Shown here piece by piece: positions 3,922-40,350 of a stretch of DNA of 64,000 nt. A model generated the notes under the pieces. The model ran no database searches, had not been told where the DNA came from, and worked only from the letters and a program-made list of their open reading frames with translations. Position 1 is the stretch's first letter; every line of letters starts with the position of its first letter. Where the stretch lies: positions 620,001 through 684,000 of the forward strand of contig NZ_CP041659.1 of NCBI RefSeq assembly GCF_007998985.1, in the 5' to 3' direction. The stretch comes from Sphingomonas xanthus (GTDB lineage: Bacteria; Pseudomonadota; Alphaproteobacteria; Sphingomonadales; Sphingomonadaceae). Position numbers and translations under genes: made by a program.

Positions 3922-3955
3922 GGCGTCGGAAGAGTCGATCGGAAGGAAGTTCGCC

Positions 3956-7373: not shown

Positions 7374-7378
7374 CACTC

Positions 7379-7798: not shown

Positions 7799-7808
7799 GG
7801 AGTTACCA

Positions 7809-8072: not shown

Positions 8073-8084
8073 CGATTGCTGACT

Positions 8085-8114
8085 CCTGTCGCCGGGCATT
8101 CGCCCGGTGGCAGG
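8085..8114 (+). other. 13-bp stem-loop upstream of multicopper oxidase gene
   Basis: CCTGTCGCCGGGC (8085-8097) pairs with GCCCGGTGGCAGG (8102-8114), with two G-U pairs and an ATTC loop. No U-tract follows, so full termination is doubtful. It could set differential expression within the operon. It buries an in-frame GTG at 8107, which supports starting the oxidase at ATG 8152. Confidence 0.6.
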
Positions 8115-8151
8115 ACCGGCAAATTTGTCCGTGACCGAGCGACGATTCCCT

Positions 8152-11411: not shown

Positions 11412-11427
11412 TCAAGGGGAGAAAATC

Positions 11428-11928: not shown

Positions 11929-11929
11929 G

Positions 11930-12619: not shown

Positions 12620-12631
12620 GGAGGATGAGTG

Positions 12632-13650: not shown

Positions 13651-13684
13651 GGCGGGGCGCCCAACAAACTAGATGGAGTTAATT

Positions 13685-14482: not shown

Positions 14483-14492
14483 GCACTTGATA

Positions 14493-14531
14493 ACGACCCC
14501 GGCGGCAAGCACGCCCGGGGTCGTCTTCATT
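14493..14531 (+). terminator. Hairpin terminator ending the copper operon
   Basis: ACGACCCCGG (14493-14502) pairs perfectly with CCGGGGTCGT (14515-14524), and CTTCATTTG follows. The tail is only moderately U-rich, but the stem is long and GC-rich and sits 11 bases after the last stop of the operon. Confidence 0.75.
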
Positions 14532-14555
14532 TGAGAACTGGAATAACCGCCGCCG

Positions 14556-15260
14556 ATGCGCACGCACATCATCGCCCGCAAGACGCACAAGTGGCTTGGG
14601 CTGTTTATTGGTCTCCAGGTCGTCATTTGGTCGCTGAGCGGCCTCTACATGACCGTCGTCCACATCGACACGATCCACGGCGACCATCTCGTGCGATCGA
14701 CGCATCAGCGATTCGCTGCAGCCGATTCGCTGGTCGATCCTGTCGCCTTGGCCTCGGCCAACGGGGCGAATGCGGTGCGGCTTGCCTGGCTCCGTGACCA
14801 GCCGCTCTTTGTGACCACGTCGGAAGCTGGAGAAACGGCGTTCGACGCGAGTACCGGGAAGCTTGTAGCGGGACCGAATGAAGCGGCGATCCGAGAATTG
14901 GCCCGCTCCTACTATACCGGCCGCAAACCAATTCTGTCGGCAAGACTGATCACAGACATCCCCGGCGAGATACGCGGGCGAAAGCCTCCGCTGTGGCAGG
15001 TCGAGTTCGACCATTGGAACAAACCGACGTTCTACCTGTCGCCTGTGACGGGTGAGTTGGTGTCGCGGCGGCACGAGCTGTGGCGCATCTTCGATTTCGT
15101 CTGGATGCTCCACATCATGGACTATGACGAGCGGGAGAATGTGAACAACACGCTGCTCCGGGTCTTCACTTGGGGAGCGGTGCTGATGGCCCTCTCCGGT
15201 GTCTGGCTGCTGCTTTACGCCTTCCCCAAGAAGAAGAAGAAAAAGGCGTTGACCAAGTGA
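14556..15260 (+). CDS. PepSY-associated membrane protein (first of tandem pair)
   Basis: 234 residues. N-terminal helix HKWLGLFIGLQVVIWSLSGLYM, a periplasmic domain with PepSY-like repeats (FDASTGKLV, WQVEFDHWNKPTFYLSPVTGELV), then the family signature RIFDFVWMLHIMDYDERENVNN and a second helix before a Lys-rich cytoplasmic tail (KKKKKK). Such proteins resemble the transmembrane part of PepSY/FTR-like iron or flavin reductases. It follows the copper operon terminator and overlaps its paralogue by GTGA. Confidence 0.82.
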   Translation: MRTHIIARKTHKWLGLFIGLQVVIWSLSGLYMTVVHIDTIHGDHLVRSTHQRFAAADSLVDPVALASANGANAVRLAWLRDQPLFVTTSEAGETAFDASTGKLVAGPNEAAIRELARSYYTGRKPILSARLITDIPGEIRGRKPPLWQVEFDHWNKPTFYLSPVTGELVSRRHELWRIFDFVWMLHIMDYDERENVNNTLLRVFTWGAVLMALSGVWLLLYAFPKKKKKKALTK

Positions 15261-25006: not shown

Positions 25007-27397
25007 TCAAGAAGCAGCGCTATCCGCTGGATTCATCCTAACGAAGTCGCGGACTCGTTCGACCGACCACAAAGGCTCGTCGGCATCCTGCGTCGCACGC
25101 TGCCGCGCCCTTAACGCCATCCAGCTTCGATATTCGGGCTCGGGATGCTCCTGCTCCAAGGCTTTCATCGCGGCATATGCATCGGGCCCTGGCACTTCGA
25201 TCAGCATATTGAACAGCGTGTTGCGCGCCTCCTGCGCATTGTCGCGCGTGGTGGGCGAATAAACCCCCTTTCCGGCACGCTCGATATCCTCTGTCACCCG
25301 GATGTAGCGGTGCATCAGCACATACAGGGTCTTGAGGTCGTGAGCGTTGCGATAGGCACCGACACGCACGCCGGCGCCGTGCCGATCGCCGAGAAGCGCG
25401 ACGATGAACTGCTGGGCGAATTCCGATCCGTCCTCCGGTGACAGACCAGCGAGATGGGACTCCAGCACCGGAATGGCAGCCGATGGATCGGTATCGACCC
25501 ACATCGCGAACCATCGTGGCCGCTGCTCGTCCAACACCGTCTCGGTCGCCTTGGTCGCCGAAAGCTCGGCAAGGGTTTCGGGTGCCACGCCGCTTCCGGC
25601 GAGAATATTCAGACTATAGCGCAAGGCGTCGGCGTTGGTGATGTCGTTGGCCCGCAGCCAGTCGAGGATCAGCGACCCAACCTCGGCATGCAACCACGGC
25701 GCATGGTAGAGGATGTCATGCAGGACGTAGTGCAACGGCTGTTCGCCCACGCTGTGCTTTAGTTCCCACAACAGCTCGGTTGTGACGGCCTCGCGACCAA
25801 TGTCGGGAAAAGCGCGATAAAGCTGCTCGAACCAGCCGGGAAAGCCGTTCAGTTCCCAAGTCACATAGCGGAACGCCAGACGCGCTTCATCGGGCGTCAG
25901 GCGCTGGGCGAAGGCGCTGTCCTCATTGGCCTCGATCGCGAGGCCGGTCATCGCGAAGATCAGCGAATAGGGCGTCGATCCCGTGTCCGCGCCTTCCGAG
26001 CGCAGCGTCGGCCGATAGATGCGCCAATGCGCGATCGCCGCGTCGCGATAGGCACGCGCAACCGGCTCGCCAAACTCGGGGATCAGCGCACGCCAGTCGG
26101 CGCCATCCTCCCGGCTTGTCGAGACTCCACTGCTCATCGCGCTGAGAAGCAGATGATACTGATCGCCGCTGAACTCGCCGGGCTTCAAGCCGACCGGATG
26201 GAGGATGCGATCGGGATTGGCCTGGAGCGCGCGCACCCAATCCTCCCGATCCTTCTTATGCTTGCGGTTGCGCGCGTCATTTTTCCGCTTCCAGCGGCGA
26301 TGTTCGGCGTCCATCCGCTCCATCGCCGGGGATGGCTTGGGATTGAGCCGTGACTCAAGAAATTCTGAGAGACCCGGATCTTCGGCAACAGCCGCGCGAA
26401 GCGGTTCGAGCCATGCCGATGGCCGATCCGCCTGAATGTAGAGCTGGATGCACCGCGAAAGCGCGATGTACCGATCGTCGCCGTCCTTCTCCGCGATCCA
26501 GGCGAGGCACCGATCGAAATCCTCGGGGCCAAACCCCCAGAAGTGACCGATGAACGCCATCTGCCAGTCATCGCGCAGTACCTCGCCCTTGGCTTCCATA
26601 CGGGCGCGGCACGCGGCGACGCTCGTCCAATAGAGAAGGTCGTTTAGCTCGCGCCAGCGATGCACGTTCTGCGACAGTGAGGTCTTGTATTCGTCGATAT
26701 CACCGCTGCGCCAGAACCGAAGCGCAGGCGTGTTGCGCAAAACCGCTAGTGTGGTCGGCTGCAATGCCGCTGTCGAGCGGGCGGCGACGAGGCGATCGAC
26801 GGCATGAAGAGCCGCCGGCATCAGCCATGCGAATTCCTCGGACACATGACATTCGCCACGCTCGACATAGGGCTCGCGCTCAAGGAACCGGCTGAAGCCG
26901 TCGATGAGCTGACCCAGCGGATGGACATCGGCCGCATCGGCCATGACCGGCAATCGCTCGATGAATTCGTGCATCGCATGGACGAGGCCCGTCGCTTTGA
27001 AGCGCTCATGGGGTGCGGTATGGTCGAGCGTTCGCAGGACCAGATCGACACCGCGCGTCGTCAGCGGTGCCCAGTCGAGCAATTCGGCGAAAACCGCTCG
27101 ATCGAGCAACGCCGGGTCATCCGCGATCCTGTGCCACAGCTGGTCCTTCAACTCGTCAGCGCCGACCGACATGACGCCCCGGATCGCTGCGATCCGCGCG
27201 TATTTGCCCCGGGTGGTATCGGCCGCGATCTCAAGCAGCAGCGGCGCGCACGACGCCATGTTGCCCTGCCAGACCAGCCGGCCGATGAAGAAGACGACAT
27301 CGTCGTTCGACCGATACTTCTCGAGCAGGGCCAGCGTATCGGCGGCAAGTTCCGGTGTTGCAATGCGCTCGATTGCACTGTTGTCCATAATGCTCAT
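25007..27397 (-). CDS. Large uncharacterised helical-repeat-like protein, partner of NTPase
   Basis: 796 residues, starting within the stop of the NTPase gene (ATGA), third gene of a minus-strand operon. No catalytic motif is recognised. The sequence is a long series of amphipathic helices (LLLEIAADTTRGKYARIAAI, ELKDQLWHRIADDPALL, TLFNMLIEVPGPDAYAAMKAL), suggestive of HEAT/TPR-like solenoids, with a charged middle (RRWKRKNDARNRKHKKDR). Solenoids are the usual sensor half of NACHT/STAND immune proteins. Here sensor and NTPase may be split into two polypeptides. The function is inferred from architecture and context only. Confidence 0.75.
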   Translation of the reverse strand: MSIMDNSAIERIATPELAADTLALLEKYRSNDDVVFFIGRLVWQGNMASCAPLLLEIAADTTRGKYARIAAIRGVMSVGADELKDQLWHRIADDPALLDRAVFAELLDWAPLTTRGVDLVLRTLDHTAPHERFKATGLVHAMHEFIERLPVMADAADVHPLGQLIDGFSRFLEREPYVERGECHVSEEFAWLMPAALHAVDRLVAARSTAALQPTTLAVLRNTPALRFWRSGDIDEYKTSLSQNVHRWRELNDLLYWTSVAACRARMEAKGEVLRDDWQMAFIGHFWGFGPEDFDRCLAWIAEKDGDDRYIALSRCIQLYIQADRPSAWLEPLRAAVAEDPGLSEFLESRLNPKPSPAMERMDAEHRRWKRKNDARNRKHKKDREDWVRALQANPDRILHPVGLKPGEFSGDQYHLLLSAMSSGVSTSREDGADWRALIPEFGEPVARAYRDAAIAHWRIYRPTLRSEGADTGSTPYSLIFAMTGLAIEANEDSAFAQRLTPDEARLAFRYVTWELNGFPGWFEQLYRAFPDIGREAVTTELLWELKHSVGEQPLHYVLHDILYHAPWLHAEVGSLILDWLRANDITNADALRYSLNILAGSGVAPETLAELSATKATETVLDEQRPRWFAMWVDTDPSAAIPVLESHLAGLSPEDGSEFAQQFIVALLGDRHGAGVRVGAYRNAHDLKTLYVLMHRYIRVTEDIERAGKGVYSPTTRDNAQEARNTLFNMLIEVPGPDAYAAMKALEQEHPEPEYRSWMALRARQRATQDADEPLWSVERVRDFVRMNPADSAAS

Positions 27398-28734
27398 CCG
27401 TCCCTCCGCGTCGCGATACGCTCGACGATATTGCTCAGCATGGCTTGGCGGACATCGAGCGGAAGCCGAGAGGGGTCACCGCCCTCAGTCGCGATCTCCG
27501 GCGCGATCGCCAGCGCCTTGTCGCGCACGGCGTTGTCGAGAAGAATGAGCCAAGTGAGCGTCGGGCGGGTGCGAGGAACAATGACCGCTTCCCCGTAGCG
27601 CTCTCGGAAAAATAGATTTTCGATCCGCGGCCGTTCGCCGGGCCGGTTCAGCAGATCGTTCGCCCATTCCGCGCTCAATAGCTCGCGGATTTCACGATGC
27701 CGGAAGCGCACGCTCGTGTAGACGATGTCGTCGAACAATCCGGTTCGAAGTAGCGCTTCGATCTCGGCATCCGACCATCCTTCGAGCAGGATGCGGGGAT
27801 CAATCCGATCAGGGCTATGCACGCCATTGGGCAGGCAGATCACCGCCTTGCCCGTCATCATCACCGCGCCGGCAAGCATCTGCGCGCCGGCCCGCAACTT
27901 CGCGGCGTCCAGGCGAACGGCAGCGGTGGTTGCTGACAACGGCGCCAACTGCAAGGCAATCATGCGTTGGAGGACGTCGAAGCGGCTGCCGAGCTTGTGG
28001 TCCGCGATCCAGACGCGGATGAGGGCCTTGAGGTCGAACGGGCGCTCGGCGAGTTGCAGCAGGTTCGCGCGCTTTATGGCATCGACGAAGTCCGTGACGT
28101 CGCTGATGCCATAGTGGCTGGCGAACAGGCGAATCTCATCCTCGCTGAGCCCGGCCAGCCGAAACAGCTTGAGGCTCGGATCGCTGTCGCGGCTCGTGTC
28201 GGCGTCGCGTTCGGACGGTTCGGGCTCGCCATAGGGCAGGTGCTGTTCGATGAGCGTCTGGTCGGGCAGTGCACGCCACGCGTCCTCGCGGCTGGTGATG
28301 AAGATGCGCGCGCGGTCCAGCGCCGCATGACACCGCGCCCCGAAAATCCGCACGGCGTCCTCAAGCGCGCGCGGAGTCTCCAGCTGCGCTTCGTCAACGG
28401 AATCGAGGAAGAACCACGCTTGGTCTGTCGATGCGAGCCAAGCGTCGAATTCCTCGGCGGTCCCGACCTCAAACGCCTGCTCGAAGTTGCTGTCGATCTT
28501 TTCGATCCGGATGAAGAAGGCATGGCGACCACGCTCCTTGATCCTCTTGGCACGAGTCTGCGCCTCGAATGTCTTTCCGGCGCCCGGGTCGGCAATGACG
28601 AGGACACGATACGCGTCCTCGATCTCATGCCACCTCATTGGCTTGCCGCTCCCCGGCATGAGGAAGTCCCACTCTGCCGATCGAGGCGACATGGGCGTGA
28701 AGCGTCGTATCAGCTCAACGATCTTATCGGTCAT
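27394..28734 (-). CDS. NACHT/STAND-like P-loop NTPase
   Basis: 446 residues from ATG 28734; this start lies inside the last codons of the Fic gene (11-base overlap). Walker A is VIADPGAGKT (P-loop lysine 54), with Ala in place of the first Gly. Walker B is WFFLDSVDEAQ (D111, D114, E115), matching the hhhhDxhDE form of NACHT proteins. A sensor-like RIFITSRED follows at about 144-151. The C-terminal half is helical (LSEDEIRLFASHYGI, FDLKALIRVWI), as in winged-helix/helical STAND extensions. Bacterial NACHT proteins defend against phage. Assignment to that clade is by motif reading. Confidence 0.8.
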   Translation of the reverse strand: MTDKIVELIRRFTPMSPRSAEWDFLMPGSGKPMRWHEIEDAYRVLVIADPGAGKTFEAQTRAKRIKERGRHAFFIRIEKIDSNFEQAFEVGTAEEFDAWLASTDQAWFFLDSVDEAQLETPRALEDAVRIFGARCHAALDRARIFITSREDAWRALPDQTLIEQHLPYGEPEPSERDADTSRDSDPSLKLFRLAGLSEDEIRLFASHYGISDVTDFVDAIKRANLLQLAERPFDLKALIRVWIADHKLGSRFDVLQRMIALQLAPLSATTAAVRLDAAKLRAGAQMLAGAVMMTGKAVICLPNGVHSPDRIDPRILLEGWSDAEIEALLRTGLFDDIVYTSVRFRHREIRELLSAEWANDLLNRPGERPRIENLFFRERYGEAVIVPRTRPTLTWLILLDNAVRDKALAIAPEIATEGGDPSRLPLDVRQAMLSNIVERIATRRDG

Positions 28735-29917
28735 GGCGCGACCCTGCATTTGCCGGATACAAGTTGGGGAACCAGCGCTCAGCGACGTCGGCCGGGAAGG
28801 CGAGTCGGAGCGGCGCGCGGTGCGAGGTGGCGGTGAGCATCCCGCGCTCGACCAGACCCGATGTCACGTTGCGGGCGCCACGCTCCTCATAGCCTGTGAG
28901 CGACGGGATCTTAGCGCGCTCGACCTCGCCGTTCATCACGGCCTCGCGCAACACGGCAAAGCTTCCACGCATTAATCGCTTGGAGCGGACCTCCTCTTCG
29001 ACGTGAATTTCCATACGGGTCAGGAGCGTCGTCGGCTCAAGCAGCCCGCTCATGAAACGGATCTGGTCGACGGACCGATCGAGGAAGAATTTGCAGAATT
29101 CGATCAGACCCCGCTGGGTAAGGTTACCCCGACCGTCGCGGTCGCCTTCGCGCGGTCCGTCGGCCTGCGCCAGCAGTGCCTTGTACCGCTCCTCGTCGCG
29201 CGCGAGTCCGCGCGCCACTGACCACAGGCTCGTACCAATCCCGAGCCGTTTGTAGAGCGCGTGCGACATCAGTCGTGCGACTCGTCCGTTGCCGTCGAGA
29301 AACGGGTGAATCCAGAGGAACCGGTGATGTACGGCCCCAACCGTCTGTATCTGCCGCGTCTTGCTGAGCGGCGGCGACCCATAAGCGGTGTCGAAGCGCG
29401 CAATGAAGCGCGGCAGGTCTTCATGCGGGGGTGGCAGGTGGCGCCCGACGTCGACGTCACGCTTACGCCAGGCGCCGGGGATGATCTCGAGCCGCTCCCC
29501 AGTTTTGTGGTCGGTTACAAACAGCATTTCAGGCGGCAGCCGCGAGCAGAATTCTTCATGGAGCCACGACGCATAGGCCGCCGAAGCCGGCCAAGCATCA
29601 GGGTCGCGGCCGGTGTCGATCAGCTGCTGGACATGGATATGAGCGACGGCCTCCTTCTGCAGGTCACGCTTCTTCGGCTCGGCCGAGAAGTCGTTGGCGA
29701 GCGCCCGATCGATGTCGCGCGGGTGCGTGTCGTGTCCCTCGATCAGATTAGAATAATAGCAATTCATCGACCGGACGAGATCGCCGATCGAGTCGCGGAG
29801 AATGGGGTGGATACGCCCAGCCAGTTGGTTGGCCTCCGCGATCAGCGGCAGAATGTCATCATCGAGAAGGCGGGACGCCTCCTCTGGGACCATCGGCTCC
29901 ATCGTTGTCACATCCAT
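28724..29917 (-). CDS. Fic-domain AMP-transferase with N-terminal inhibitory motif and C-terminal winged HTH
   Basis: 397 residues. The catalytic motif HPFLDGNGR is at 204-212 and the inhibitory (S/T)xxxE(G/N) motif is SNLIEG (56-61), so this is a class II self-inhibited Fic protein. The C-terminus (LREAVMNGEVERAKIPSLTGYEERGARNVTSGLVERGMLT) looks like a winged HTH. Fic enzymes transfer AMP to Ser, Thr or Tyr of target proteins. It is first in the operon with the NACHT-like NTPase and solenoid. The HTH and the upstream direct repeats suggest autoregulation. Confidence 0.9.
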   Translation of the reverse strand: MDVTTMEPMVPEEASRLLDDDILPLIAEANQLAGRIHPILRDSIGDLVRSMNCYYSNLIEGHDTHPRDIDRALANDFSAEPKKRDLQKEAVAHIHVQQLIDTGRDPDAWPASAAYASWLHEEFCSRLPPEMLFVTDHKTGERLEIIPGAWRKRDVDVGRHLPPPHEDLPRFIARFDTAYGSPPLSKTRQIQTVGAVHHRFLWIHPFLDGNGRVARLMSHALYKRLGIGTSLWSVARGLARDEERYKALLAQADGPREGDRDGRGNLTQRGLIEFCKFFLDRSVDQIRFMSGLLEPTTLLTRMEIHVEEEVRSKRLMRGSFAVLREAVMNGEVERAKIPSLTGYEERGARNVTSGLVERGMLTATSHRAPLRLAFPADVAERWFPNLYPANAGSRHDR

Positions 29918-30304: not shown

Positions 30305-31024
30305 TTAAGCTGCAAACCGCTGCTCGACCTGGAAGTCGAGACCATGCGCGAAAGGAGAAGTTGGCTCTGCGGCAGCGATTCTGAGCACATGAGCCATCGC
30401 TTCAGAGACCATCGCGGAGGCAAGCGGCTCGCTCCAATCGAACCCGATCCTTACCAAGGCTTGATCCTCCAGAAGCGGTCCATACCGCTGTCGCAGGCGT
30501 TGGCGGACCTCGTTCGGACTTCGCGCGATCATGGCTCCGAAGACCTGAATATGACCATCGGGCAGCTCGGCACTAATCGAACAGCTGTAGAGAGCCATGG
30601 GTCCGGCTTCCCATGGGTCCGCCTCGCGGCTTCGAGGTGGCCGTTCAGATTGGAGGTGACGCATGGCGGTGTGGCTCAGGAATTCATGTGCGGGAATCCT
30701 TGCGACGTGAGTGGGCGCGGTATCCAATCCGAGTGATAGCCCGTGGAGCACGACTGCTCGCCGAAAGCCCTCAGGACGGCCGCAGACCTCAACTGCACTC
30801 CGTTCATCGAACAGTTTTCGACGTGTCAGCAGCCAATCCAGCGGATCATGATCGATCCGTTCGCGGATGAAGCGGGCACCCGTCTCTGCCGCAACGTGCA
30901 TCAAGCGCAGCGTTGCCAATCGGCTGGCAGGCGATTTGGGCTCTACACCCCCTCGCCTGACCAACATCGCTGCAGTGGCCTTCTTGCGGCCGCAACAACT
31001 TTGCGAACGTGCCTCGATGCGCAT
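30305..31024 (-). CDS. Uncharacterised protein, divergent from ArsR-type regulator
   Basis: Up to 239 residues; internal Met codons (for example at MLVRRGG) are possible starts. The segment DPLDWLLTRRKLFDERSAVEVC ... RAVVLHGLSLGLD recalls the WL...lFdGrspl pattern of Xre/MbcA/ParS (DUF2384) antitoxin domains, but only weakly. The C-terminal part (LYSCSISAELPDGHIQVFGAMIARSPNEV) reads as a compact alpha/beta domain. No membrane or signal segment. Shares a palindromic control region with the ArsR-type gene. Confidence 0.6.
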   Translation of the reverse strand: MRIEARSQSCCGRKKATAAMLVRRGGVEPKSPASRLATLRLMHVAAETGARFIRERIDHDPLDWLLTRRKLFDERSAVEVCGRPEGFRRAVVLHGLSLGLDTAPTHVARIPAHEFLSHTAMRHLQSERPPRSREADPWEAGPMALYSCSISAELPDGHIQVFGAMIARSPNEVRQRLRQRYGPLLEDQALVRIGFDWSEPLASAMVSEAMAHVLRIAAAEPTSPFAHGLDFQVEQRFAA

Positions 31025-31096: not shown

Positions 31097-31209
31097 CGAC
31101 GATATATGGAAGTATACAAAGCCGTTGGCCTCCGGCACCGAACATGGCAATGTCTCGGAGTGTTCAGCCAATGGCAGTGTTCGGGGGAGCACCGTTAGCG
31201 GTGAGGTGT

Positions 31210-31506
31210 ATGGAAAACGAAGCTGCAGTTGCAGCGCTGGCAGCGCTTGCCTTCGAGACACGGTTACAGGCCGTGCAGCTGCTCGCCACTGTCGGTGACG
31301 ACGGGCTCGCGGCGGGCGAATTGTCGCGTCGACTGGGTGTGCAACAAAACACACTCAGCGATCACCTCGCGTCACTGGCACGCGCCGGGATCGTTAAAGC
31401 TGATCGACAAGGACGATCGATCATCTATCGCGCGAACCCGCAGGCCGTCCGGGACCTCGTTTTGTTCCTTAGCGAGCGTCTCGGCGCAAACGCGCGAGCC
31501 GCGTAA
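31210..31506 (+). CDS. ArsR/SmtB-family helix-turn-helix regulator
   Basis: 98 residues from ATG 31210 (GAGGTG just upstream); the frame is open further, to ATG 31144. The winged HTH is typical: LAFETRLQAVQLLATVGDDGLAAGELSRRLGVQQNTLSDHLASLARAGIVKADRQGRSIIYRANP. No Cys metal ligands are evident, so it is probably not an arsenite or metal sensor. It likely controls the divergent gene at 30305 and itself. Confidence 0.82.
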   Translation: MENEAAVAALAALAFETRLQAVQLLATVGDDGLAAGELSRRLGVQQNTLSDHLASLARAGIVKADRQGRSIIYRANPQAVRDLVLFLSERLGANARAA

Positions 31507-31777
31507 ACTGCGGCGTCAAGAAGATTTAAGTTTCTTTTCCAGAATTACCTTGGAGGAAATCACCGACAACATCCTTGTCGATCATCTTTCCGAATCGTCC
31601 CGACAGTACTGGGCTTGCGGGAGACGCCTCTCAATTGACCCTCAAATGCATTCGTCAACGGATCCTCGGCGTTTCGCACGCCTCAGCCTGCCTGCTGACT
31701 AAGCACAGAATTGGGGGACATCGAAGAAGGGAAAGCGGTCGATCCAGCGGTGCCCCGGTGCACGTCTGGAGAAGAAA
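31507..31777. other. Gap before the transposon-associated gene; no gene seen
   Basis: No convincing frame. CGACA-ACATCCT-TGTCG (about 31564-31580) is an inverted repeat. A ribosome site (GGAGAAG) precedes the next ATG. If the Tn7-like element has an end on this side, this gap is a candidate place for it, but no copy of the 40302-40350 repeats is visible here. Confidence 0.3.
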
Positions 31778-32770
31778 ATGTTCGACGATATCCTGCTCGA
31801 AGACCTTGCTGCTTCACCGCCCCAAGTCTGGGCGCAGAGGAACGAGCAGGCTGAAGTGATCGGGCCATTGGCATCCTTGTCAAAGCTCACAGTGGCTGAC
31901 GCCGAGCGAGCTCGAGCCGAGTTGCAGATTAGTCGCAGGTATCTCTACCAACTGGTGAAGGCACGGCGTGAGCGTCTCAACGGACTTCCGGCGCGCGGTC
32001 ACGGTACCGGAGCTCAATTCCATATCGATGAGTGCCAGGAACGCATCATTGCGCAAGCGATAGACCGGGCCGGACCGGCCGCCCGGCACAGGGACGTTCT
32101 CGCTTTGGCGATGAGTATGAGCGAACAGGTGGGCATCGCGCCGCCTTCAGAGAAGGCCGTTCGCGTACGGTTTGGCAAACATCGGCCGAACATCGATCTC
32201 GCCAGCCGCTTCAAGCTCGAATGCGATTACATTGCGGATCTCTGCCCGCTCGGACTGGCCCTGGCCGACGAAAAAGGGGAAGCTGACGCCTGGCTCTTCG
32301 CGGCTGTGGAGAGCAATCGCTGCACGATCATCACGCACGATCTTTACATTGGAAAGCCGAGCAGGCACCAACTGCTTGCGAGTTTGGCGAACGCGGCCGC
32401 CGCGCCCGATTTCGCCGGACGGCCTCTCAGCCTTAGTGCTGCCGTTGAGGCGTACAACCTCGTTGATTTGAGCCTTGACAACGGCGCTGAATTGCGACGG
32501 CCATCACGCGGAAAAGCGATCGTCGGTGGCTCTATCATCAAAGCTGTCTGCGGCTCGTCGCTTGGACGTATCCGTATCCGGACCGAACCATCGCGTAGAT
32601 CGGGCTATCGTCCCGTCACGCTCCGCCTCGCTGCGACGGTTGTCGGCCGACTCATCTCCGAGCTCAATTCGTGTCGCGAGATACGTCAACGTCATCCCAC
32701 ATCGCGCGGGCATCTTCCACCGCCTCAAAGACAGGAGCAAAAAGCTGCCGGAGCCGGTGCGCAAACTTAA
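31778..32770 (+). CDS. Truncated TnsB-like paralogue (HTH plus integrase-like core)
   Basis: 330 residues. An HTH (RARAELQISRRYLYQLVKARR) precedes a segment with PPSEKAVRVRFGK and then FKLECDYIADLCPLGLALADEKGEADAW and LVDLSLDNGAELRR. These align by eye with the first two catalytic strands of TnsB/TniA integrase cores (D150 and D234). The glutamate helix is not recognisable, although E270 lies 36 residues after D234. From about residue 296 the frame is antisense to the neighbouring gene and becomes low-complexity, so the native C-terminus is probably lost. Possibly a decaying copy or an accessory DNA-binding protein. Confidence 0.6.
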   Translation: MFDDILLEDLAASPPQVWAQRNEQAEVIGPLASLSKLTVADAERARAELQISRRYLYQLVKARRERLNGLPARGHGTGAQFHIDECQERIIAQAIDRAGPAARHRDVLALAMSMSEQVGIAPPSEKAVRVRFGKHRPNIDLASRFKLECDYIADLCPLGLALADEKGEADAWLFAAVESNRCTIITHDLYIGKPSRHQLLASLANAAAAPDFAGRPLSLSAAVEAYNLVDLSLDNGAELRRPSRGKAIVGGSIIKAVCGSSLGRIRIRTEPSRRSGYRPVTLRLAATVVGRLISELNSCREIRQRHPTSRGHLPPPQRQEQKAAGAGAQT

Positions 32771-34025
32771 CTCCCGGACCTCCAAATCGGGCTAAATCAC
32801 CATCTGCGGCGGGCAGCCGCGCTAGAATCGCTTCGTTCCAACGATCAACGCTACTGGAGACCAAGCGACGGGCGTCATCTAACGGCATGCCGGGTGTCGA
32901 TGAAACTGCCTCGAACCGCTCCATTGCCATTGGTTTGAACTTAAAGGGTGGCAAGCGATCGCCTATCAAGCGGAGCGTCGCTGCCCCGTGCCTTCTCGGC
33001 CCAGTGTCTACAACGTCGACTTGAAGTCTAGCTCCGGTGAACTCCGGGCTGAGAGGGTATGAAAAGAATTCGAGATCGCGTGGAGCGATCCAGGTGAGCG
33101 CACGGAGGGAATCCGCGATGCGAACTCCAGAAGTAGAGAGTTCCCGCATGCGGCGTTCAGCATCATCAAGCGCAAGCTGAAGCCCGGCGCCTTCACCATA
33201 TGCAGCCGTGAGACCGTGCCCAAGGATTAGCTTCGTTACGTGATCGATAATCAAGGTTGCGATTGCAAACCGGGACACGTTGCCGTCTTCCACGCTCAAA
33301 TTAAGATTGACCTGATCGACAGTGATCTGTTCGCCGACAGGCCCGAGCTGCTCTGGCAAAGCCGATCGTTTGAGCGCATGGACGCGTCGACGGACGGCAG
33401 ACTCGCCGGGGACGGGAGTACCAGTACGCTCACACTCTCTAAGTACCGCATTTTCAATCTGGGCAATACGTGTCTGTGGTTTGTCCGCAAGTAGTTGGCG
33501 GACAAACGAGTCCAGCGGTTCGGCTAGTCCCTCTCGAGCTATCGACCGACGCGCAATGTTCCTGAACCCTGGCGTCAGCCCTCGGGTCGGTCCCAGCTGC
33601 CGAACCTTGGCGACAAACTTGAAGAATTGGCGCCGTCCTACGCCAATCGCAGAAGCAGCTGCCTCAACGTTGCCGCTGACTTCAGAAGAAGGATCGAGAT
33701 AGCGATCTATTGCCGTGAGGCGTTGCTCGACAGTTTGCTGTTTGTGGAGGGGCTGCACGGCGAAGAGGGCAAGTTCGTCCTCTAACGCCCATCCGGCTGG
33801 TAGATATCGCCGGAATAACTCAGTCTCTTTGATCGACGGCACCGGCTTCTCCAAAAATTCTCCGAAGGAGAGTCTCGGTGAACGTTTAAGAGACGCAGAT
33901 TTCTGTTGCAAGTCCCAGATTCGGCTTTCATATGGTGTTTGGTGAACATCTAACGGACGCTGATTCTGCCAGCTAGTTCGTCGATGGAGTACGAAGAATG
34001 CGAGGACTACAAACGATGCAATCAT
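32664..34025 (-). CDS. Degenerate TnsB-like protein without catalytic triad, divergent from tnsA
   Basis: 453 residues from ATG 34025; the frame upstream is antisense to tnsA. Similar to the 31778 gene: HTH (NVEAAASAIGVGRRQFFKFVAKV), PGESAVRRRVHAL, then an RNase H-like core GEQITVDQVNLNLSVEDG ... IATLIIDHVTKLILGHGL that matches the TnsB pattern of first strand plus viD..sr.ilG. D237 remains, but the DNALEF position reads APRDLEF and the GERALG helix reads HGAATLRLIG, so the second and third acids are gone. It ends in a helical C-terminal extension. It may bind element ends or DNA targets without cutting. Confidence 0.65.
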   Translation of the reverse strand: MIASFVVLAFFVLHRRTSWQNQRPLDVHQTPYESRIWDLQQKSASLKRSPRLSFGEFLEKPVPSIKETELFRRYLPAGWALEDELALFAVQPLHKQQTVEQRLTAIDRYLDPSSEVSGNVEAAASAIGVGRRQFFKFVAKVRQLGPTRGLTPGFRNIARRSIAREGLAEPLDSFVRQLLADKPQTRIAQIENAVLRECERTGTPVPGESAVRRRVHALKRSALPEQLGPVGEQITVDQVNLNLSVEDGNVSRFAIATLIIDHVTKLILGHGLTAAYGEGAGLQLALDDAERRMRELSTSGVRIADSLRALTWIAPRDLEFFSYPLSPEFTGARLQVDVVDTGPRRHGAATLRLIGDRLPPFKFKPMAMERFEAVSSTPGMPLDDARRLVSSSVDRWNEAILARLPAADGDLARFGGPGVKFAHRLRQLFAPVFEAVEDARAMWDDVDVSRDTN

Positions 34026-34158
34026 CTGAAATCTTGCTTCTGGCGGCGATGATCGCAGCGGCCCATGCCGCCCAGTCAAAATCAGAACGCAAGAGTTGGC
34101 CCCGGCCTCGCGGCGATCGTCGCGGTCCTTGGACTTCTGCTCGCGGATCGGGACGGTA

Positions 34159-35040
34159 ATGACGTCCCCTCGCGTCTTCGAGGCGAAGGCCATCGGACAC
34201 TGGACCGATAATGTCGATGTCAAACCAACTTGGCCCATCCGCATCCCGGCGTCGCAGGCCATCGTCGACGATCTTGGTTTGGCTTACCAGCTGCGCGACC
34301 CGCTGATCTCTCCTTCCCGAGCGAACCTCGTTCCCGCCGATCGACTGCTGCCCGTCGTTGGCGAAGAGTTCATTCGCTCCGCCGAAATGTTCGTCAGCGC
34401 GGACGGCGGCTCGCTTCGCTGGTTCGATGGCGCCCAGGCGCATGAGACCGGATGGTATCCGAGCTGGAAGCGCGGGCGCCTGCAGCATTGGGAGGGCCTC
34501 ACCCAGAAGCATACGCTACTGAAGGCCGAATGCGACTGGAACGTTCTGTGGGCCCAGTCGGAAGCTCGCCGGTTCCGGTTCATGCTCGAAGGACGTTGGC
34601 GAGAATACACCTGTGATGTCGAAATCCAGCTCGCCGATGGCACAACGCAGATCATCGAGAACAAGGCCGACGAGCGCTCGGTCAAAGACGCAGACTATCG
34701 ACTGACCCTCGCTGGCGTGAGCGAGATCTGCCGCCGGGTCGGATTTCAATTCCAGATCATCATGGGTGATGAGGTCTTCGCCAACCGGCACCACCGCCGC
34801 AATGTGGAGTTGTTCGCGTCACGCGGCTTCGCGACGGTCACGCCGCGCCACATCCGGAAGCTCGAAGCGTTCGCCGTCGAACGCGGTCCGATCACGACTT
34901 ACGGGCAGCTTTCCGAGCTTCTGGAGCCGGACTTTGTTCCGGCAGGAAAGGCAGTCGTCCAGGCGCTGGTGGTACGCCGTCGCGTCCAGATCGATCTCAC
35001 CGATCACGTCCACGACCATACGCCCGTCACCCTGCACTAA
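34159..35040 (+). CDS. tnsA: TnsA-family transposon endonuclease
   Basis: 293 residues from ATG 34159. The N-terminal restriction-like fold shows E124 (LKAECDWNVLW), D153 (YTCDVEIQL) and the ExK motif IIENKAD (E167, K169), the catalytic set of TnsA. A C-terminal domain (RRNVELFASRGFATVTPRHIRKLEAFAVERGPIT) follows, as in TnsA_C. In Tn7-like elements TnsA cuts the 5' ends and gives cut-and-paste rather than replicative transposition. First gene of tnsABC-tniQ. Confidence 0.88.
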   Translation: MTSPRVFEAKAIGHWTDNVDVKPTWPIRIPASQAIVDDLGLAYQLRDPLISPSRANLVPADRLLPVVGEEFIRSAEMFVSADGGSLRWFDGAQAHETGWYPSWKRGRLQHWEGLTQKHTLLKAECDWNVLWAQSEARRFRFMLEGRWREYTCDVEIQLADGTTQIIENKADERSVKDADYRLTLAGVSEICRRVGFQFQIIMGDEVFANRHHRRNVELFASRGFATVTPRHIRKLEAFAVERGPITTYGQLSELLEPDFVPAGKAVVQALVVRRRVQIDLTDHVHDHTPVTLH

Positions 35041-35194
35041 GGACAGCTCGCATGGACCATTATCATCATCATTTCTGCGTTAAGCGCAGCTGTGCGCTGT
35101 TCATCGCTGACACGACCAAGGCGCAATGCCGGGCTCCGCCGTCGCCGATGAGCGCACCCACCTGCAAGCCGGCTTAGGCCACATCCTCACCACT

Positions 35195-35218
35195 CGAACC
35201 GGACCAAAGTCCGGTTCG
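35195..35218 (+). other. Perfect 10-bp stem-loop in the tnsA-tnsB leader
   Basis: CGAACCGGAC (35195-35204) and GTCCGGTTCG (35209-35218) pair perfectly around CAAA. It lies in an unusually long gap (35041-35293) between two genes of one operon, 76 bases before the GTG of tnsB. No U-tract follows. It may control the TnsA to TnsB ratio or be a protein-binding palindrome. Confidence 0.6.
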
Positions 35219-35293
35219 CCTCCCGAAAACTTAGACCGAAACCGCGTCGCGGTGGGCGGAATGCCGCCGCGCGCCCAGAAAAGGAGTTCTGAA

Positions 35294-37492
35294 GTGGCTG
35301 ACCTTCCTTCGTACAACTATCCCGCTGGAGTCCTCATTCGCATCGACGGTGCGCTCTACCGTCCCGTTCCGGACTCGATTCCTGATCGCGTTCACCTCAT
35401 GTGCGTCCGAACCGGACAACCCTTCCGTTGTCCGAACGAGCAGGGTCTCCCGGAACTTCCGACGCCGGACGCGCTCGATCAACTCAAGATCGACGGGCGC
35501 CTTGAGGAGGAGTTCCCCGAATCCATGATCCAGGCGCGTCGGCTTGCAGCGAAGACCGATTGGGACCGGTCTGACTGCACCAAGCTCGACCCCCAATCTG
35601 AGAAGATGCTCGTGCAATGCGAGCTCCTCGACGACCACGGCGTCCCCAACGGAACACAAGCGATCCAGCTCGCAATGCCGGACCTGTGGACGGATCAGCT
35701 CCGCGAGCAGTTCGGAGAGCATAGCAATCCCCATACGATCAAGCGCTGGCGGAGCGAACGTGGCAGCGCCGGACAGCGCTCCTGCAAGGACATGGTGCGG
35801 ATGAACGGCAAGGTTCCCCGTTCGCCGTGGCTCGACGACGTTGTCGAGCAGGTCAAGCAGAAGCACGCGCTCAACTGTCATATCTCGGCAGGCGCCGTGG
35901 TGACCCACCACGGGTTTGCTGCTGCCGAAATCAAGGCCATCAACGAGGGGCGTCACCATCACTACCCGGCACCGGAAAAGCCCTACCGCTGCTTCAGCTA
36001 CGACACCTTCCGCCGGGCTTGCATCGCGCTTGAGGGAAGCGAAACCCTTGAGGCCAAGCATGGTCGCCAGTACGTCCAGGCGAAGTGCAAGGGTGCGGGC
36101 AAGAATCTGACCGCCACCCGCATCCTCGAGAAGGTGATCGTCGACCACACCGAGCTCGACGCGTTCACCATCGTCGATCCCGACAAGCAGTGGCTGAGCC
36201 AGCGTGCCTGGTTGTCGGTCGCCATCGATGTCCACTCTCGCGCCTGTCTCGCGTGGGTCGTGACCTACATCCCGCCAAGCTACTGGACGGTCTACGAACT
36301 CTTGCGGCGCATGCTGCGCCCCAAGCGGCCGCCGCAGCGGCTCGTCGAACGCTTTCCGATACTCAAGCGCATCTGCGGCCGGCCGACGGAATTGATCGTC
36401 GACAACGCGCTCGAGTTCCGCTGCAAGAGCATGCGCGACATGGCCGGATCGACCGGCATCTCAGTCCGCTTCGCTCCCGTGAAAAAGCCGCGGTACAAAG
36501 CCATCGGAGAGCGGGCTCTGGGCACGATCCCGCGCCTTTTGCTCGACGGCATGGCAGGGCGAACGCGGGGCGTCGAATACAGCCGCCTCGCCGAATACGA
36601 CCCTCAGGCGAAAGCCGAAATCACGATGATTGGGCTCGAAGCGCTGCTCAATTACGCGACTGCCGAATATAACATCGCCCATCACTGCGGCCTCGACGAC
36701 CGCCAGCCCGCCCTCGTTTTCCGCAATTCGGCCAATGCGCATGGCATCGATATGATGTGCGATTTGCGGGCGGCTCACCTCGAGATCATGGAGGTCGAAG
36801 AAAACGTCCAGGTCACCAAGTCCGGCGCGCGGGTCTTCGGGCTTCGTTACCACTGTCCGCGGAATGTCCCGGCGCTCATCGACGAGAACACTCGGTTCGA
36901 GCCTCGGCGCCAGGCGCGCGACACCGCGAGCATCACGACGAAGATCAAGTTCGACCCTTCGAACATCTCGAAGATCCATGTGTGGAACCGTCAGCGCCGC
37001 AAGTACCTCGAACTTCAGTGCGAGGAGGAAAGCTATTCCGACGGGATGCCGCTCAGCTTCCACCGCGAACTTGTGGAACGCGCTGCCGAGGAAGGGCGCG
37101 TCTTCTGCTCCGAAGAGGATCGCCTGGAGTTTCGCGCGATCCGGATCGCAGCGCTCAAAAACCTTACACCTAAGGCCAAGGCTCGGGAACGCGCGGCGCT
37201 TGCTCGCCTGTATGAGCATCCTCGCATCCGCCAGATCACGGGGAACCTGGTCTCCGTCGACTTCGATGTCGCGGAAAGTGTGACGGCCGACGAGTTCATC
37301 ACTCACGACGTGGCGTCGCTGACCTCCTTCGACGCGGAAGTCCTCGCGACCACGCCCCCGACCCGCCGGCACTTTGCGGACACGAAGCCTCGCGATCGCC
37401 GCAGCGACGCTGAGTCGATCCGTGCCTCCAAGGACGCCAAGCGCCCGCGTCCGCGCCGAGCGCGGGCTGCCGGCGGGGAGTATGCCGCATGA
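35294..37492 (+). CDS. tnsB: TnsB/TniA-family DDE transposase
   Basis: 732 residues; GTG 35294 is chosen because an AAGGAG site sits 8 bases upstream and the longer frame is not protein-like. Order: N-terminal domain (YPAGVLIRIDGALYRPV), HTH regions (HTIKRWRSERGSAG), the integrase core with D284 (VDHTELD), the AIDVHSRACLAWVV strand, D370 (IVDNALEF) and E406 (IGERALG). D370 and E406 are 35 residues apart, the classical D-D-35-E. The Mu-C-like barrel and a basic tail (KRPRPRRARAAGG) close it. It cuts and joins 3' ends and, through its tail, likely contacts TnsC. Confidence 0.92.
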   Translation: MADLPSYNYPAGVLIRIDGALYRPVPDSIPDRVHLMCVRTGQPFRCPNEQGLPELPTPDALDQLKIDGRLEEEFPESMIQARRLAAKTDWDRSDCTKLDPQSEKMLVQCELLDDHGVPNGTQAIQLAMPDLWTDQLREQFGEHSNPHTIKRWRSERGSAGQRSCKDMVRMNGKVPRSPWLDDVVEQVKQKHALNCHISAGAVVTHHGFAAAEIKAINEGRHHHYPAPEKPYRCFSYDTFRRACIALEGSETLEAKHGRQYVQAKCKGAGKNLTATRILEKVIVDHTELDAFTIVDPDKQWLSQRAWLSVAIDVHSRACLAWVVTYIPPSYWTVYELLRRMLRPKRPPQRLVERFPILKRICGRPTELIVDNALEFRCKSMRDMAGSTGISVRFAPVKKPRYKAIGERALGTIPRLLLDGMAGRTRGVEYSRLAEYDPQAKAEITMIGLEALLNYATAEYNIAHHCGLDDRQPALVFRNSANAHGIDMMCDLRAAHLEIMEVEENVQVTKSGARVFGLRYHCPRNVPALIDENTRFEPRRQARDTASITTKIKFDPSNISKIHVWNRQRRKYLELQCEEESYSDGMPLSFHRELVERAAEEGRVFCSEEDRLEFRAIRIAALKNLTPKAKARERAALARLYEHPRIRQITGNLVSVDFDVAESVTADEFITHDVASLTSFDAEVLATTPPTRRHFADTKPRDRRSDAESIRASKDAKRPRPRRARAAGGEYAA

Positions 37493-38415
37493 CCACCCCC
37501 GAGAACATGGCAGAACGAAATGCCCGGGTTGCTCGCGCTCGGCAGCTCATCGGCGAGATCTCGATCCCCTACCCGCCGCAGATCGAGCTCAAGGTCGCAC
37601 TCGACGAGTTGCGCCACACCGCCGTCCTGACGCGGGGGCGGCCCCAAAGAGGCGTCCACCTCTTCGGCCCGTCGTTCGCGGGTAAAACCACAGCAGCCCG
37701 CGAGCACTCCAAGCACGTGCTCGCAACTGAAGAGCATCCGCCTGGAGCGGTTCCGATTGCCCTTGCAACGATCGACCCCGAAGGGTCACTTGCAAGCGTC
37801 GCGACGGACATCCTGCGGTCGTTGGGTGAACCCCGCCCGGACAAAGGCTCAGCGGCGCTAAGGTGGGAGCGGGTCTGGAATTCATTGCCCGAACGCAAGG
37901 TCCAGATTCTCATCTTGGACGAGTTTCAACGGACTACGCGCCGGCCGACGATGAGCCCGGTGATCGCAGCCAAAGTGCAGGACCTGATGGAAGGAGGACT
38001 GTGCGCAGTAGCCTTTCTTGGACTCGAAAAGGCGCATGACGTTTTCCACACCGCGTCCGACCTGTCCAACCGCCTCGATGTACCGGTCACGATGTCCCAG
38101 CTGCAGTGGGCCGATGACGAAGACCGGAAAATGTTCACCGACTTCGTCAGCCGGTATGATCAAGCTCTCGCGGACGCGGGCATTGTCTCGCTCCACTCAG
38201 GACTTGCCGATGACGAGCAGCAACTGCAGCTGCTTCACGAGGCCTCGAACGGGTTGATTGGCCAGTTTTGCCGCATCGTAGAGACTGCGGCCATCTCAGT
38301 GGTCAGGAACAAGTACAGCTGCATCTCGCGCGAGGATCTCGCCGACGCCGTCGATGACTGGTCCATCGCGAACCGTCGGATCGCTTACAATCCGTTTAGA
38401 GATGGAGAGAAGTGA
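37489..38415 (+). CDS. tnsC: TnsC/TniB-family AAA+ ATPase
   Basis: 308 residues, overlapping tnsB (ATGA). Walker A GPSFAGKTT (60-68), Walker B ILILDEFQR, then a TniB-like arrangement with RRPTMSPVIAAKVQDLMEGG and FLGLEKAHDVF, and an Arg-finger region near SNRLDVPVTM. TnsC forms filaments on target DNA that connect the target selector (TniQ) to the transposase. Confidence 0.92.
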   Translation: MTTPENMAERNARVARARQLIGEISIPYPPQIELKVALDELRHTAVLTRGRPQRGVHLFGPSFAGKTTAAREHSKHVLATEEHPPGAVPIALATIDPEGSLASVATDILRSLGEPRPDKGSAALRWERVWNSLPERKVQILILDEFQRTTRRPTMSPVIAAKVQDLMEGGLCAVAFLGLEKAHDVFHTASDLSNRLDVPVTMSQLQWADDEDRKMFTDFVSRYDQALADAGIVSLHSGLADDEQQLQLLHEASNGLIGQFCRIVETAAISVVRNKYSCISREDLADAVDDWSIANRRIAYNPFRDGEK

Positions 38416-40241
38416 TGCCTGCGATCACACCGATTCCCGGCGAGTCGTTCAACGGGCTCCTTCATCGCTGGGCCGCAGCCAACTTCATCGACAGTATGCT
38501 CGAAATCACTCGACAAGCCGGTGTCGAGTACCCTCACGTGCAGGACGTGGCTCTCAATGAGCGCCGTGACCTAAGCAAGATCGCCGAGATTACGGGTGTA
38601 CCGTTGCCGGAATTACAGGTTCGCACTTTACCGGCCGATGAGGACGGGCTTACCAGAAAGCTCTTCGGCGTGTCCGTCCGTAAAACTGACCTCGAGGTCC
38701 GCGATCGTCGGTTTGCGCCAGCTAGCCTGCGGCTTTCGGCACACCACCGCGCACTCTGGATGGTCCGCACGATCTCGTTTTGCCCGGAAACCTGGCAGTA
38801 TCTGCGTTCCACCTGCCACCGAGACCAGTGTGGCGTAACACAGCAGTGGAGCAGTACGTTCGGAATCGAGCGTTGCGGTCGCTGTCTCGCTGACCTGCGG
38901 GACAGTCCGAGCGATCTTGTCCCCGAAGAGGAGCGAGAGGCACTCCATGCGTTAGTCGACCTTCTCAGCCCCGATCCGGCACGGAAGCGCTCGATACTCG
39001 CCACTCTGCCTGCCTCCTTAGGCGAGATCACGCCCGACGCGGCTTACGAGTTGCTGATCAGGCTCATGAAAGTTGTTGACCCGTCGCTGCCGGCCGCACG
39101 GACGAACATGCACCTCGCGGGACCGCACCAACTCTCCTCCGCAATGGCTCAGGCGTGGCGCATCCTGCAGTCCTGGCCGGAGGGATTCGTGGGTCTCGCT
39201 GCGGAGCGAATCCGGGCCCGTGTTACGCGCGACGATGGCAATCAGGGTGAGAGCATGCGCTTTCTCAGCCTATGGAGAAATCGCTCCCAGCTCTCCGATC
39301 CTATTGCCCGTCGTATCGTTAAAGAGATTTCCGACTTCATCGACATTTCCGATCCGGTGAATGCAGCAAGATTCCTCACGCTGAATGCCGCCGCAGCAGC
39401 CGTCGGACTGAAGCAATCTCGGCTGTCGAATCTTCGTCGGGCGGGGGTCCTCCGCACTCGCTTCGCGATCCGCCGGGACCGCCCGATGGCAGCATTCTGT
39501 GCGGATGAGATCGCCAGCCTCAACGTCGGCTTCGAAGACAGGATGTCGATCGAGACGGCTCGAGCCCAGCTCGGCATCACGTGCCACGGCGTCGAGCAGC
39601 TTGTAGCACTCGGTCTCCTTGATGAGGTTGCTCACCCGTATTTCCGTGCCCGGTACATTTGGGTGCCGCTCAGTTTCGCATCACTGAAGGCGTTTTGCGG
39701 CCGGGTTGAGACTGAAGGGAGGCCCATCAGCGGACCGAAGGTTCCACTGGACATGGCTGCGAAGGTAATCGGCGGTCGCCTCAAGCCCTGGGGCGCGATG
39801 CTGAAAATGCTGCTCGATGGTGAGCTCGACTACGAGTTCTTGGGCGGCTTGAAAACGCTCGCAAAAGCCATACACATCCGAACAAGTGACGTTCCGCGCC
39901 TCCGGTCTATCCAGTTCGACACGACCAGCATTCGACCTTTCAAGTTCCAGGCGTTGATGTCGAAGCGAGACGCCGCAGATACCCTAAACCTGGGTCCTAA
40001 TCAGGCGACAAGGCTGCTCTCCGACCACATAACGCCTCGCGGCTCGCGTTCGGTCGTAGTGCCCATCGAGGCAGTGGAGAAGCTCGCGGCAAAGTACGTC
40101 AGTGCAGCTGAACTGGCTTGGCTGCTCGGCCTCTCGAAAACCGAAGCTTATTTCCTAGCGAAGCGCTGCGGCGTTCCCCACTCCCGACCAGGCGGCTTCC
40201 TGCGTTCAGAAGCAATCGAACGCCTCGACTTGCCTCGCTAA
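38415..40241 (+). CDS. tniQ: TniQ/TnsD-family target-selection protein
   Basis: 608 residues from ATG 38415 (TGATG overlap with tnsC). The N-terminus is TniQ: PIPGESFNGLLHRWAAANF, then zinc-finger residues FCPETWQYLRSTCHRDQCGV and IERCGRCLADL. The long C-terminal part has several HTH-like segments (AAAAVGLKQSRLSNLRRAGV, SAAELAWLLGLSKTEAYFLAK), as in TnsD-like proteins that read a specific site. It is therefore more likely a site-recognising TnsD-type than the short TniQ found with CRISPR elements. Confidence 0.88.
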   Translation: MPAITPIPGESFNGLLHRWAAANFIDSMLEITRQAGVEYPHVQDVALNERRDLSKIAEITGVPLPELQVRTLPADEDGLTRKLFGVSVRKTDLEVRDRRFAPASLRLSAHHRALWMVRTISFCPETWQYLRSTCHRDQCGVTQQWSSTFGIERCGRCLADLRDSPSDLVPEEEREALHALVDLLSPDPARKRSILATLPASLGEITPDAAYELLIRLMKVVDPSLPAARTNMHLAGPHQLSSAMAQAWRILQSWPEGFVGLAAERIRARVTRDDGNQGESMRFLSLWRNRSQLSDPIARRIVKEISDFIDISDPVNAARFLTLNAAAAAVGLKQSRLSNLRRAGVLRTRFAIRRDRPMAAFCADEIASLNVGFEDRMSIETARAQLGITCHGVEQLVALGLLDEVAHPYFRARYIWVPLSFASLKAFCGRVETEGRPISGPKVPLDMAAKVIGGRLKPWGAMLKMLLDGELDYEFLGGLKTLAKAIHIRTSDVPRLRSIQFDTTSIRPFKFQALMSKRDAADTLNLGPNQATRLLSDHITPRGSRSVVVPIEAVEKLAAKYVSAAELAWLLGLSKTEAYFLAKRCGVPHSRPGGFLRSEAIERLDLPR

Positions 40242-40301: not shown

Positions 40302-40350
40302 GGAGCAGGTTTGTGCAAGAAGGCGGCGTCTAGGGAGCAGGCTTGTGCAA
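40302..40350. repeat. Two 17-bp direct repeats, candidate TnsB-binding sites at element end
   Basis: GGAGCAGGTTTGTGCAA (40302-40318) and GGAGCAGGCTTGTGCAA (40334-40350) differ at one base and are 32 bp apart. A weaker third copy (TTGGGTGCAAATTG) begins near 40357. Arrays of about 20-bp direct repeats at the ends are how TnsB recognises Tn7-like elements. No flanking terminal TGT/ACA or target duplication could be fixed, so the exact end is open. Confidence 0.55.

Follow-up and report, generated by a model that had tools for sequence, protein, structure and literature searches.

The complete 2.23-Mb genome of Sphingomonas xanthus holds a Tn7-like element in which two genes for transposase-related proteins without a catalytic triad stand next to tnsA. 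We analyzed the 64,000 nucleotides around it (contig NZ_CP041659.1, positions 620,001 to 684,000; hereafter the window, with coordinates given on its forward strand) and named the two genes P, proximal to tnsA, and D, distal to it. Judged from sequence, P and D are paralogues lacking a catalytic triad that are linked to tnsA, lie inside the element in a conserved order, and are exchanged between elements independently of the tns genes. We propose, giving the idea an even chance of being correct, that they form a control cassette in which P binds repeats in the P–tnsA gap and represses the tns operon, and which can set the immunity type of its element. A preliminary description of the region had recognized one of these genes as a dead, TnsB-like protein beside tnsA; that it belongs to a pair, is nearer to TniA and is exchanged together with its partner goes beyond that account.

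P lies on the minus strand at 32664..33854 and encodes 396 amino acids comprising a helix-turn-helix (HTH) region and an inactive RNase H-like transposase core, in divergent orientation to tnsA. The preliminary description had placed the gene at 32664..34025. Because most P homologues are ~390-400 amino acids long and start near residue 58-62 of that longer open reading frame (ORF), we prefer the start at 33854 (TTG; alternatively GTG at 33842) over the one at 34025. The motifs first used to link the protein to TnsB are where they were said to be, ITVDQVNLNL and IATLIIDHVTKLILG in the minus-strand ORF and DNALEF and IGERALG in tnsB (35126-37492). A hidden Markov model (HMM) alignment to the intact-triad transposase at locus L153 likewise agrees with the original assignment of the lost residues: the second catalytic Asp falls opposite P258 (codon 33081..33083, minus strand) in PRDLEF and the Glu opposite L294 (codon 32973..32975, minus strand) in HGAATLRL. 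Across 46 aligned sequences, the second Asp occurs once and the Glu never, while the first catalytic Asp position, D180 (codon 33315..33317, minus strand), is retained in all 46. P has no D-D-E triad, and the claim of a catalytically dead core is borne out. The pattern is not a matter of chance: of 7994 candidates scored, 21 were homologues at E <= 0.001, and the triad loss is family-wide.

The predicted structure of P corresponds to the RNase H-like integrase/transposase fold of solved DDE cores. Its top match in the Protein Data Bank (PDB) is TnsB (7pik, E 1.7e-8), followed by ShCAST TnsB, MuA, and IstA; a sequence search of the PDB returned nothing of note. The structure comparison that the preliminary description had called for thus gave the TnsB/MuA core and not an unrelated fold. 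Profile comparison puts P nearer to a set of shorter transposases (E 3.9e-18) than to the TnsB of its own element kind (E 6.4e-6). We call these shorter proteins TniA-type, our own label for eight transposases of 550-643 amino acids, one of which (L028) adjoins a tnsA-like ORF. That P was copied from the TnsB of its own element was rejected, as BLASTP with the window TnsB gave nothing significant. Pfam scans of P and D matched HTH models in a few proteins and did not find Mu-transpos_C, a domain present in TnsB; P ends after the core.

D (31778..32770, plus strand) encodes a 330-amino-acid, full-length paralogue of P. The two genes converge, their 3′ ends overlapping by 107 bp, and their profiles match at E 3.6e-32 over ~306 columns. 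The predicted fold of D has ShCAST TnsB as its top PDB match (E 1.8e-8). Counting only the rows with a letter at a given position, D proteins keep the first Asp in 15/34, the second Asp in 0/30, and the Glu in 1/33; the window D reads Asp, Ser, and Lys and has no D-D-E triad. In place of a single convergent D, loci L107 and L108 carry D-like genes oriented as P is, three in the former (5723-9711) and two in the latter (8102-14655); two stretches of D genes are common to both loci and differently placed.

A narrow P model found matches in 14 of 397 genomes of the family and 2 of 385 of the class. The broader model (E <= 1e-4) matched 34 of 396 genomes of the order and 4 of 337 of the class; the latter were the source genome, G012, G215, where the match is of the tnsB type, and G252, which was left out of the locus inspection. 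Among the 34, a P–D pair is present in 25, all from the family to which S. xanthus belongs; G720, G711, G843, and G852 carry genes of the tnsB/tniA kind, and inspection left out G880, G888, G928, G1017, and G1023. For G711, the place inspected was contig C48, and the matched place is on C1, where the match abuts a TnsB place. Three P proteins used as queries had no match in a plasmid search, and homologues at the 80-96% level (P0001-P0006) occur on metagenome contigs.

We scanned 35 loci with family HMMs. P adjoins tnsA in 31 of them and is divergent from it in 31 of 31, so the homologues sought in the preliminary description are indeed linked to tnsA wherever P is present. These 31 include the near-duplicates L024 and L026 and exclude L025, where a weaker P-like ORF lies by tns genes near a contig end. 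D accompanies P at 30 loci, the exception being L002 (Novosphingobium sp. ST904), which is cut by the contig end; D is convergent with P in 27 and on the same strand in L107, L108, and L109. All 31 loci have tnsB, and 30 have tnsC and tniQ (L093 is cut, and the tniQ match in L106 is weak). Several candidates were rejected as P: the matches in L027, L028, L153, L154, and L162 are tnsB/tniA-type genes, that in L029 is another transposase, and that in L155 is a 300-amino-acid ORF overlapping a tnsB-type ORF, which we read as its N-terminal part in another frame. Starting instead from TnsB, 24 of 29 places with E < 1e-95 carry P and D. The rest comprise one place with a D-like gene only (G425:C7), two cut by contig ends (G463:C8 and G756), and two without P and D within the 17-18 kb covered (G468 and G915). 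The weaker TnsB places inspected were L148-L162, G922, G942, and those already among the scanned loci; the 15 weaker or distant places L148-L162, several of them near contig ends, have no P–D pair, and G922 and G942 have one. A third gene common to all elements was not found, the largest cluster past D covering 6 of 29 loci.

The pair does not follow the tns genes in its divergence. Over 28 elements (1000 permutations; excluding L026 as a duplicate of L024, and L002, L025, and L093 as incomplete), pairwise identities of P and D correlate by rank at 0.61 and those of the tns genes among themselves at 0.62-0.75, whereas P or D against tnsA, tnsB, tnsC, or tniQ gives −0.03 to 0.10. Identities under ~25% are near saturation, and this missing correlation is therefore to be read alongside explicit swaps, of which three stand out. 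L024 and L091 agree at 81% in P and 74% in D, whereas BLASTP puts TnsB, TnsC, and TniQ at 23% and detects no TnsA match (the pairwise identity comparison has the Tns proteins at 17-23%). Only one DNA match links the two loci (75% over 3.2 kb). It begins upstream of D, takes in D, P, and the gap repeats, and ends 188 bp short of the tnsA ORF in L024 and 22 bp into that of L091. The reverse is seen in L099 and L100, which lie on one contig: tnsA through tniQ are 59-77% alike, P and D are 25-27% alike, and the DNA match begins at tnsA, leaving P, D, and the gap outside. In L107 and L108, the tns genes are 90-98% alike and P 30%. Finally, L022 and L024 share cargo DNA up to 46 and 110 bp from D and no further. 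Swaps, correlations, and this cargo boundary together mark the P–D pair as an independent module.

The gap between P and tnsA contains two 25-bp direct repeats in the window, at 33877..33901 and, 64 bp further on, at 33941..33965 (chance expectation 0.00 for the two-copy consensus; p 0.01), which we propose as operator halves. No further copy (<=6/24 mismatches) occurs in the 124 kb scanned. Spaced direct repeats at p < 0.05 are present in 8 of 31 P–tnsA gaps (7 of 30 without the duplicate L026), compared with 1 of 29 control regions upstream of D. The gaps of L024 and L091, whose TnsB proteins are 18-23% alike, both contain one repeat pair, TTCTACATGCCAATGC and TTCTAAATGCCAACGC, with a spacing of 44 bp. 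More generally, gap similarity is higher for pairs of elements alike in P but not in TnsB (mean z 2.6, n=9) than for pairs alike in TnsB but not in P (mean z 0.2, n=18; difference p 0.007). In some pairs, the gap sequence follows P. For these tests, gap bounds were set by hand in the window and L019 (repeats and similarity) and in L098 (similarity); the pair of the window and L002 was entered manually from rounded identities, and the background came from a random 15% of pairs. In that pair (P 52%, TnsB 23%), a common GGTGAA-N9-GACGCTGATT can be seen by eye, with a 24-base statistic of z 0.2. No match to the gap repeats was seen in the outermost 200 bp of the elements in G441 and G605 or in the 200 bp after the window tniQ (p 0.46-0.70), the last being a region where the element end is not mapped. 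Because the gap follows P and its motifs do not recur at the ends, we assign the repeats to P and D, not to TnsB.

Mapped ends place P and D inside the element. Two elements, in G441 and G694, are 98% identical over 18.5 kb, have the same P and D, and adjoin different genes; their 5-bp target duplications, CAATC and GCGAC, are both firm, and the G441 element is bounded by TATCAGATTGCA...TGCAATCTGATA. Less firm are the ends in G605, with TGTTGGGACCACCT at both and the duplication CTAGC, and in G393, with the duplication TCGTT. The former were tied with two other candidates (5/20 mismatches) and were picked for the agreement of their first 14 bases (TGTTGGGACCACCT), and the latter had 5 mismatches against 6 in the next candidate; both choices are judgements. 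In all four relatives, P and D lie between the cargo and tnsA. The search for ends in G609, G012, G526, and G631 led to none that we accepted, including a G526 candidate with 4/20 mismatches 25 bp past the tniQ stop.

From these features we infer that P and D bind DNA, form a complex, and act in repression and immunity. P, probably together with D, would bind the paired direct repeats between P and tnsA and repress the operon tnsA-tnsB-tnsC-tniQ, with the P gene itself probably repressed too. Repressor and operator would move together and be swapped regardless of the Tns proteins, so that the cassette could set the immunity type. Repression by P with D as its partner is the simplest reading in view of the divergent placement, the repeats that follow P, the independence from the Tns proteins, and an HTH region without a triad. 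The immunity reading, the bolder one, is suggested by the joint swapping of the putative repressor and operator, as happens in phage immunity regions; in phage Mu and the lambdoid phages, the repressor-operator region sets the immunity type. Whether such cassettes also decide which elements cohabit a cell, in the manner of phage heteroimmunity, is a more speculative extension about which we are rather doubtful. If the immunity reading is true, the spare D arrays of L107 and L108 would represent either leftovers or a reserve of former immunity types.

Some residues speak against a clean loss of the triad: an acidic residue stands two positions after the second Asp position in 28 of 46 P rows (D260 in the window), and others occur at position 292 in 4 and at 295 in 6 of 46, although none of these residues is conserved in all rows. 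Several observations weigh against the proposal itself. The universal retention of the first Asp would be unexpected in a pure repressor unless its role is structural. Whole-chain TM-scores of the P and D models are low (0.17-0.31 by query length, ten best), and the P genes of G441 and G694 differ by one change, too few for a dN/dS estimate. The start of D faces the cargo, pointing away from the gap repeats. Paired repeats are not significant in 23 of 31 gaps, and the gap-similarity difference leans on L024/L091 (z 10.3) and on pairs that share members and are non-independent; in two of the nine pairs, the window with L002 (z 0.2) and L023 with L095 (z −0.8), there is no gap similarity. Nor does exchange always involve both genes: L107 and L108 share a D gene that is 97% alike (the best-scoring one, not next to P in L107) despite their dissimilar P. 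Two elements with strong TnsB matches (L144 and L146) lack P and D in the stretch covered. No sigma-70-type promoter was detected in 31500-34400, a type of scan that may not suit this bacterial group.

Of the three roles that the preliminary description had offered, a regulator of tns expression fits best, because P diverges from tnsA, repeats occur in 8 of 31 gaps, and the pair is swapped between elements whose Tns proteins are ~23% identical; a target chooser and an end-binding competitor fit less well. The swaps argue against any component of the machinery that has to fit the Tns proteins. Among the rivals, target selection comes first, because recruitment of an inactive recombinase for targeting has a precedent in a Tn7-like element, namely TnsF in Tn6022 (PMC10293859). 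By analogy, P and D would bind chromosomal target DNA and pass it to TniQ/TnsC; a swapped pair would redirect insertion to another site, and D arrays would broaden the range. That P and D are divergent in sequence and swapped, with multiple D genes in L107 and L108, suits this idea, which we nonetheless consider unlikely: the nearly identical G441 and G694 elements, which have P and D in common, occupy two different sites, and swaps between elements with 23%-identical TnsC and TniQ are hard to square with the contacts it requires. Nor did ORFs 0.8-3.5 kb past tniQ at 30 loci reveal a clear common target gene; the only flanking matches were between L024 and L026 and in a short ORF that immediately follows tniQ in L107, L108, and L109, which is probably still inside the element.

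P and D might instead be non-catalytic end-binding subunits of the transpososome, or rivals of TnsB at the ends, given that the HTH region and core of TniA-type transposases are preserved in both and that the Mu repressor also binds Mu ends (PMC3820752). The failure of the gap repeats to match terminal sequence, the lack of any relation between P/D and TnsB divergence, and the missing Mu-transpos_C make this quite improbable. A pair derived from a TniA-type transposon could also serve as a weapon, a dominant-negative inhibitor of TniA-type competitors, as the closer kinship of P to TniA-type proteins than to TnsB would allow. Such a weapon would have no use for a constant divergence from tnsA or for gap repeats, and TniA-type genes, whether active or not, coexist with the pair in G775 and G1032; we regard it as a poor prospect. 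The idea that P and D are functionless, decaying remnants of an older element draws on the vanished active-site residues, the strong sequence divergence, and D ORFs that look truncated in L021 and L023. It is scarcely credible beside long ORFs in near-fixed order at 31 loci, 45 invariant columns in the 18 nearer P homologues (7 in the broader set of 25), and a D dN/dS of 0.30 between the G441 and G694 copies.

Under the preferred reading, a repressor cassette, the closest known parallel is the phage Mu repressor (c/Rep), a transposase-related DNA-binding protein that controls a transposition operon. In Mu, the arrangement around the operator is divergent, and the 31 P loci agree with Mu in arrangement, though in arrangement only. 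Mu Rep shares with MuA only the N-terminal DNA-binding part; P and D, in contrast, retain both the HTH region and a dead catalytic core, and they occur as two partner genes. By profile match and predicted fold, they resemble TniA, TnsB, and MuA in HTH region and RNase H-like core and differ in lacking the triad, and P is also shorter. Tn5 Inh and P-element KP are truncated transposases that inhibit transposition and derive from the transposase of their own element; P and D are transposase derivatives too, but not close to their own TnsB. Regulation of CRISPR-associated transposons (CASTs) was largely unknown according to the abstract of PMC9938897, which presents CvkR, a MerR-type repressor of a type V-K CAST acting on tnsB and cas12k via a conserved motif. 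CvkR is likewise a repressor dedicated to a Tn7-like element, yet it has a MerR fold and is not transposase-derived, and that abstract mentions no repressor-operator exchange (PMC9938897). TnsF is likewise a recombinase that has lost its catalytic activity and was taken into service by a Tn7-like element, but it has a tyrosine recombinase fold, and its choice of the comM target has been demonstrated (PMC10293859). Titles and abstract openings, a coverage outside which most subscription papers fall, yielded no pair of dead TnsB/TniA proteins in Tn7-like elements; nor did the passages found by word search in two large Tn7 surveys, whose main text has no word starting with "sphingo". Within that literature, we found no description of what the sequences suggest, an exchangeable control module of dead transposases in a Tn7-like element. 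Control of Tn7-like machinery is understood for few elements, and a swapped pair of dead transposases with a candidate operator offers a concrete, testable answer; if true, it would add a novel role for an inactivated DDE core. The swaps already made in nature, L024/L091, L099/L100, and L107/L108, are ready tests of which part sets specificity, with relevance to the control of Tn7-like DNA insertion tools.

The tns genes of the window form one plus-strand operon in the order tnsA-tnsB-tnsC-tniQ, as expected of a Tn7-like element. The tnsA ORF opens at 34096 with an ATG at 34159 (34159..35040); it matches NF033179 at E 3.1e-9, under the cut-off of that model, and our family HMM at 6e-75, one of the ten seeds of which is the window tnsA ORF translated out of frame. 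The tnsB gene (35126..37492) matches PF00665 and PF09299 over cut-off and has an intact triad (D340, D426, E462), invariant in 8 of 8 aligned TnsB proteins. It is followed by tnsC (37489..38415; PF05621 over cut-off) and tniQ (38412..40241; PF06527 marginally over cut-off). Elsewhere, tnsB is split into two ORFs, in L024 (13085-15483), L026, L002 (6012-8210), L094, and L096, the halves overlapping by 4 bp in L024 and being separated by a gap in L002. The ends of the window element and a 5-bp target duplication were searched for and not found. Two direct repeats of GGAGCAGGYTTGTGCAA, 32 bp apart at 40302..40350 (plus strand), may be TnsB sites belonging to the right end; two matches at <=3 mismatches also turned up in 2 of 100 shuffles. 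At 40424, after tniQ and facing right, the window has TGTTGGGACCACCT, identical to the proposed G605 terminus; its partner was not found, and it may be the end of another element.

Upstream of tnsA in L144, three genes at 1809-5157, which we take to be a serine recombinase and two ParB-like genes, are possibly another control module. Scans of the window for tRNA and Rfam families gave no matches. An ORF upstream of D (31144-31506), presumably ArsR-like, has similar ORFs past D in L092, L099, and L105. Further upstream, a 239-amino-acid ORF (30305-31024) without a Pfam match resembles by eye the ORF at 685-1443 in L145, which adjoins a D-like gene and tnsA. The NACHT antiphage protein HyoA (NF058534) is represented at 25007-28749 by two ORFs with a 4-bp overlap, each matching a separate part of the model, and a Fic-domain gene (28724-29917) adjoins them. 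The long gene run at 497-24692, which we assume from its appearance to encode metal resistance, has similar DNA in L018, L021, and L027 and is probably cargo of the element.

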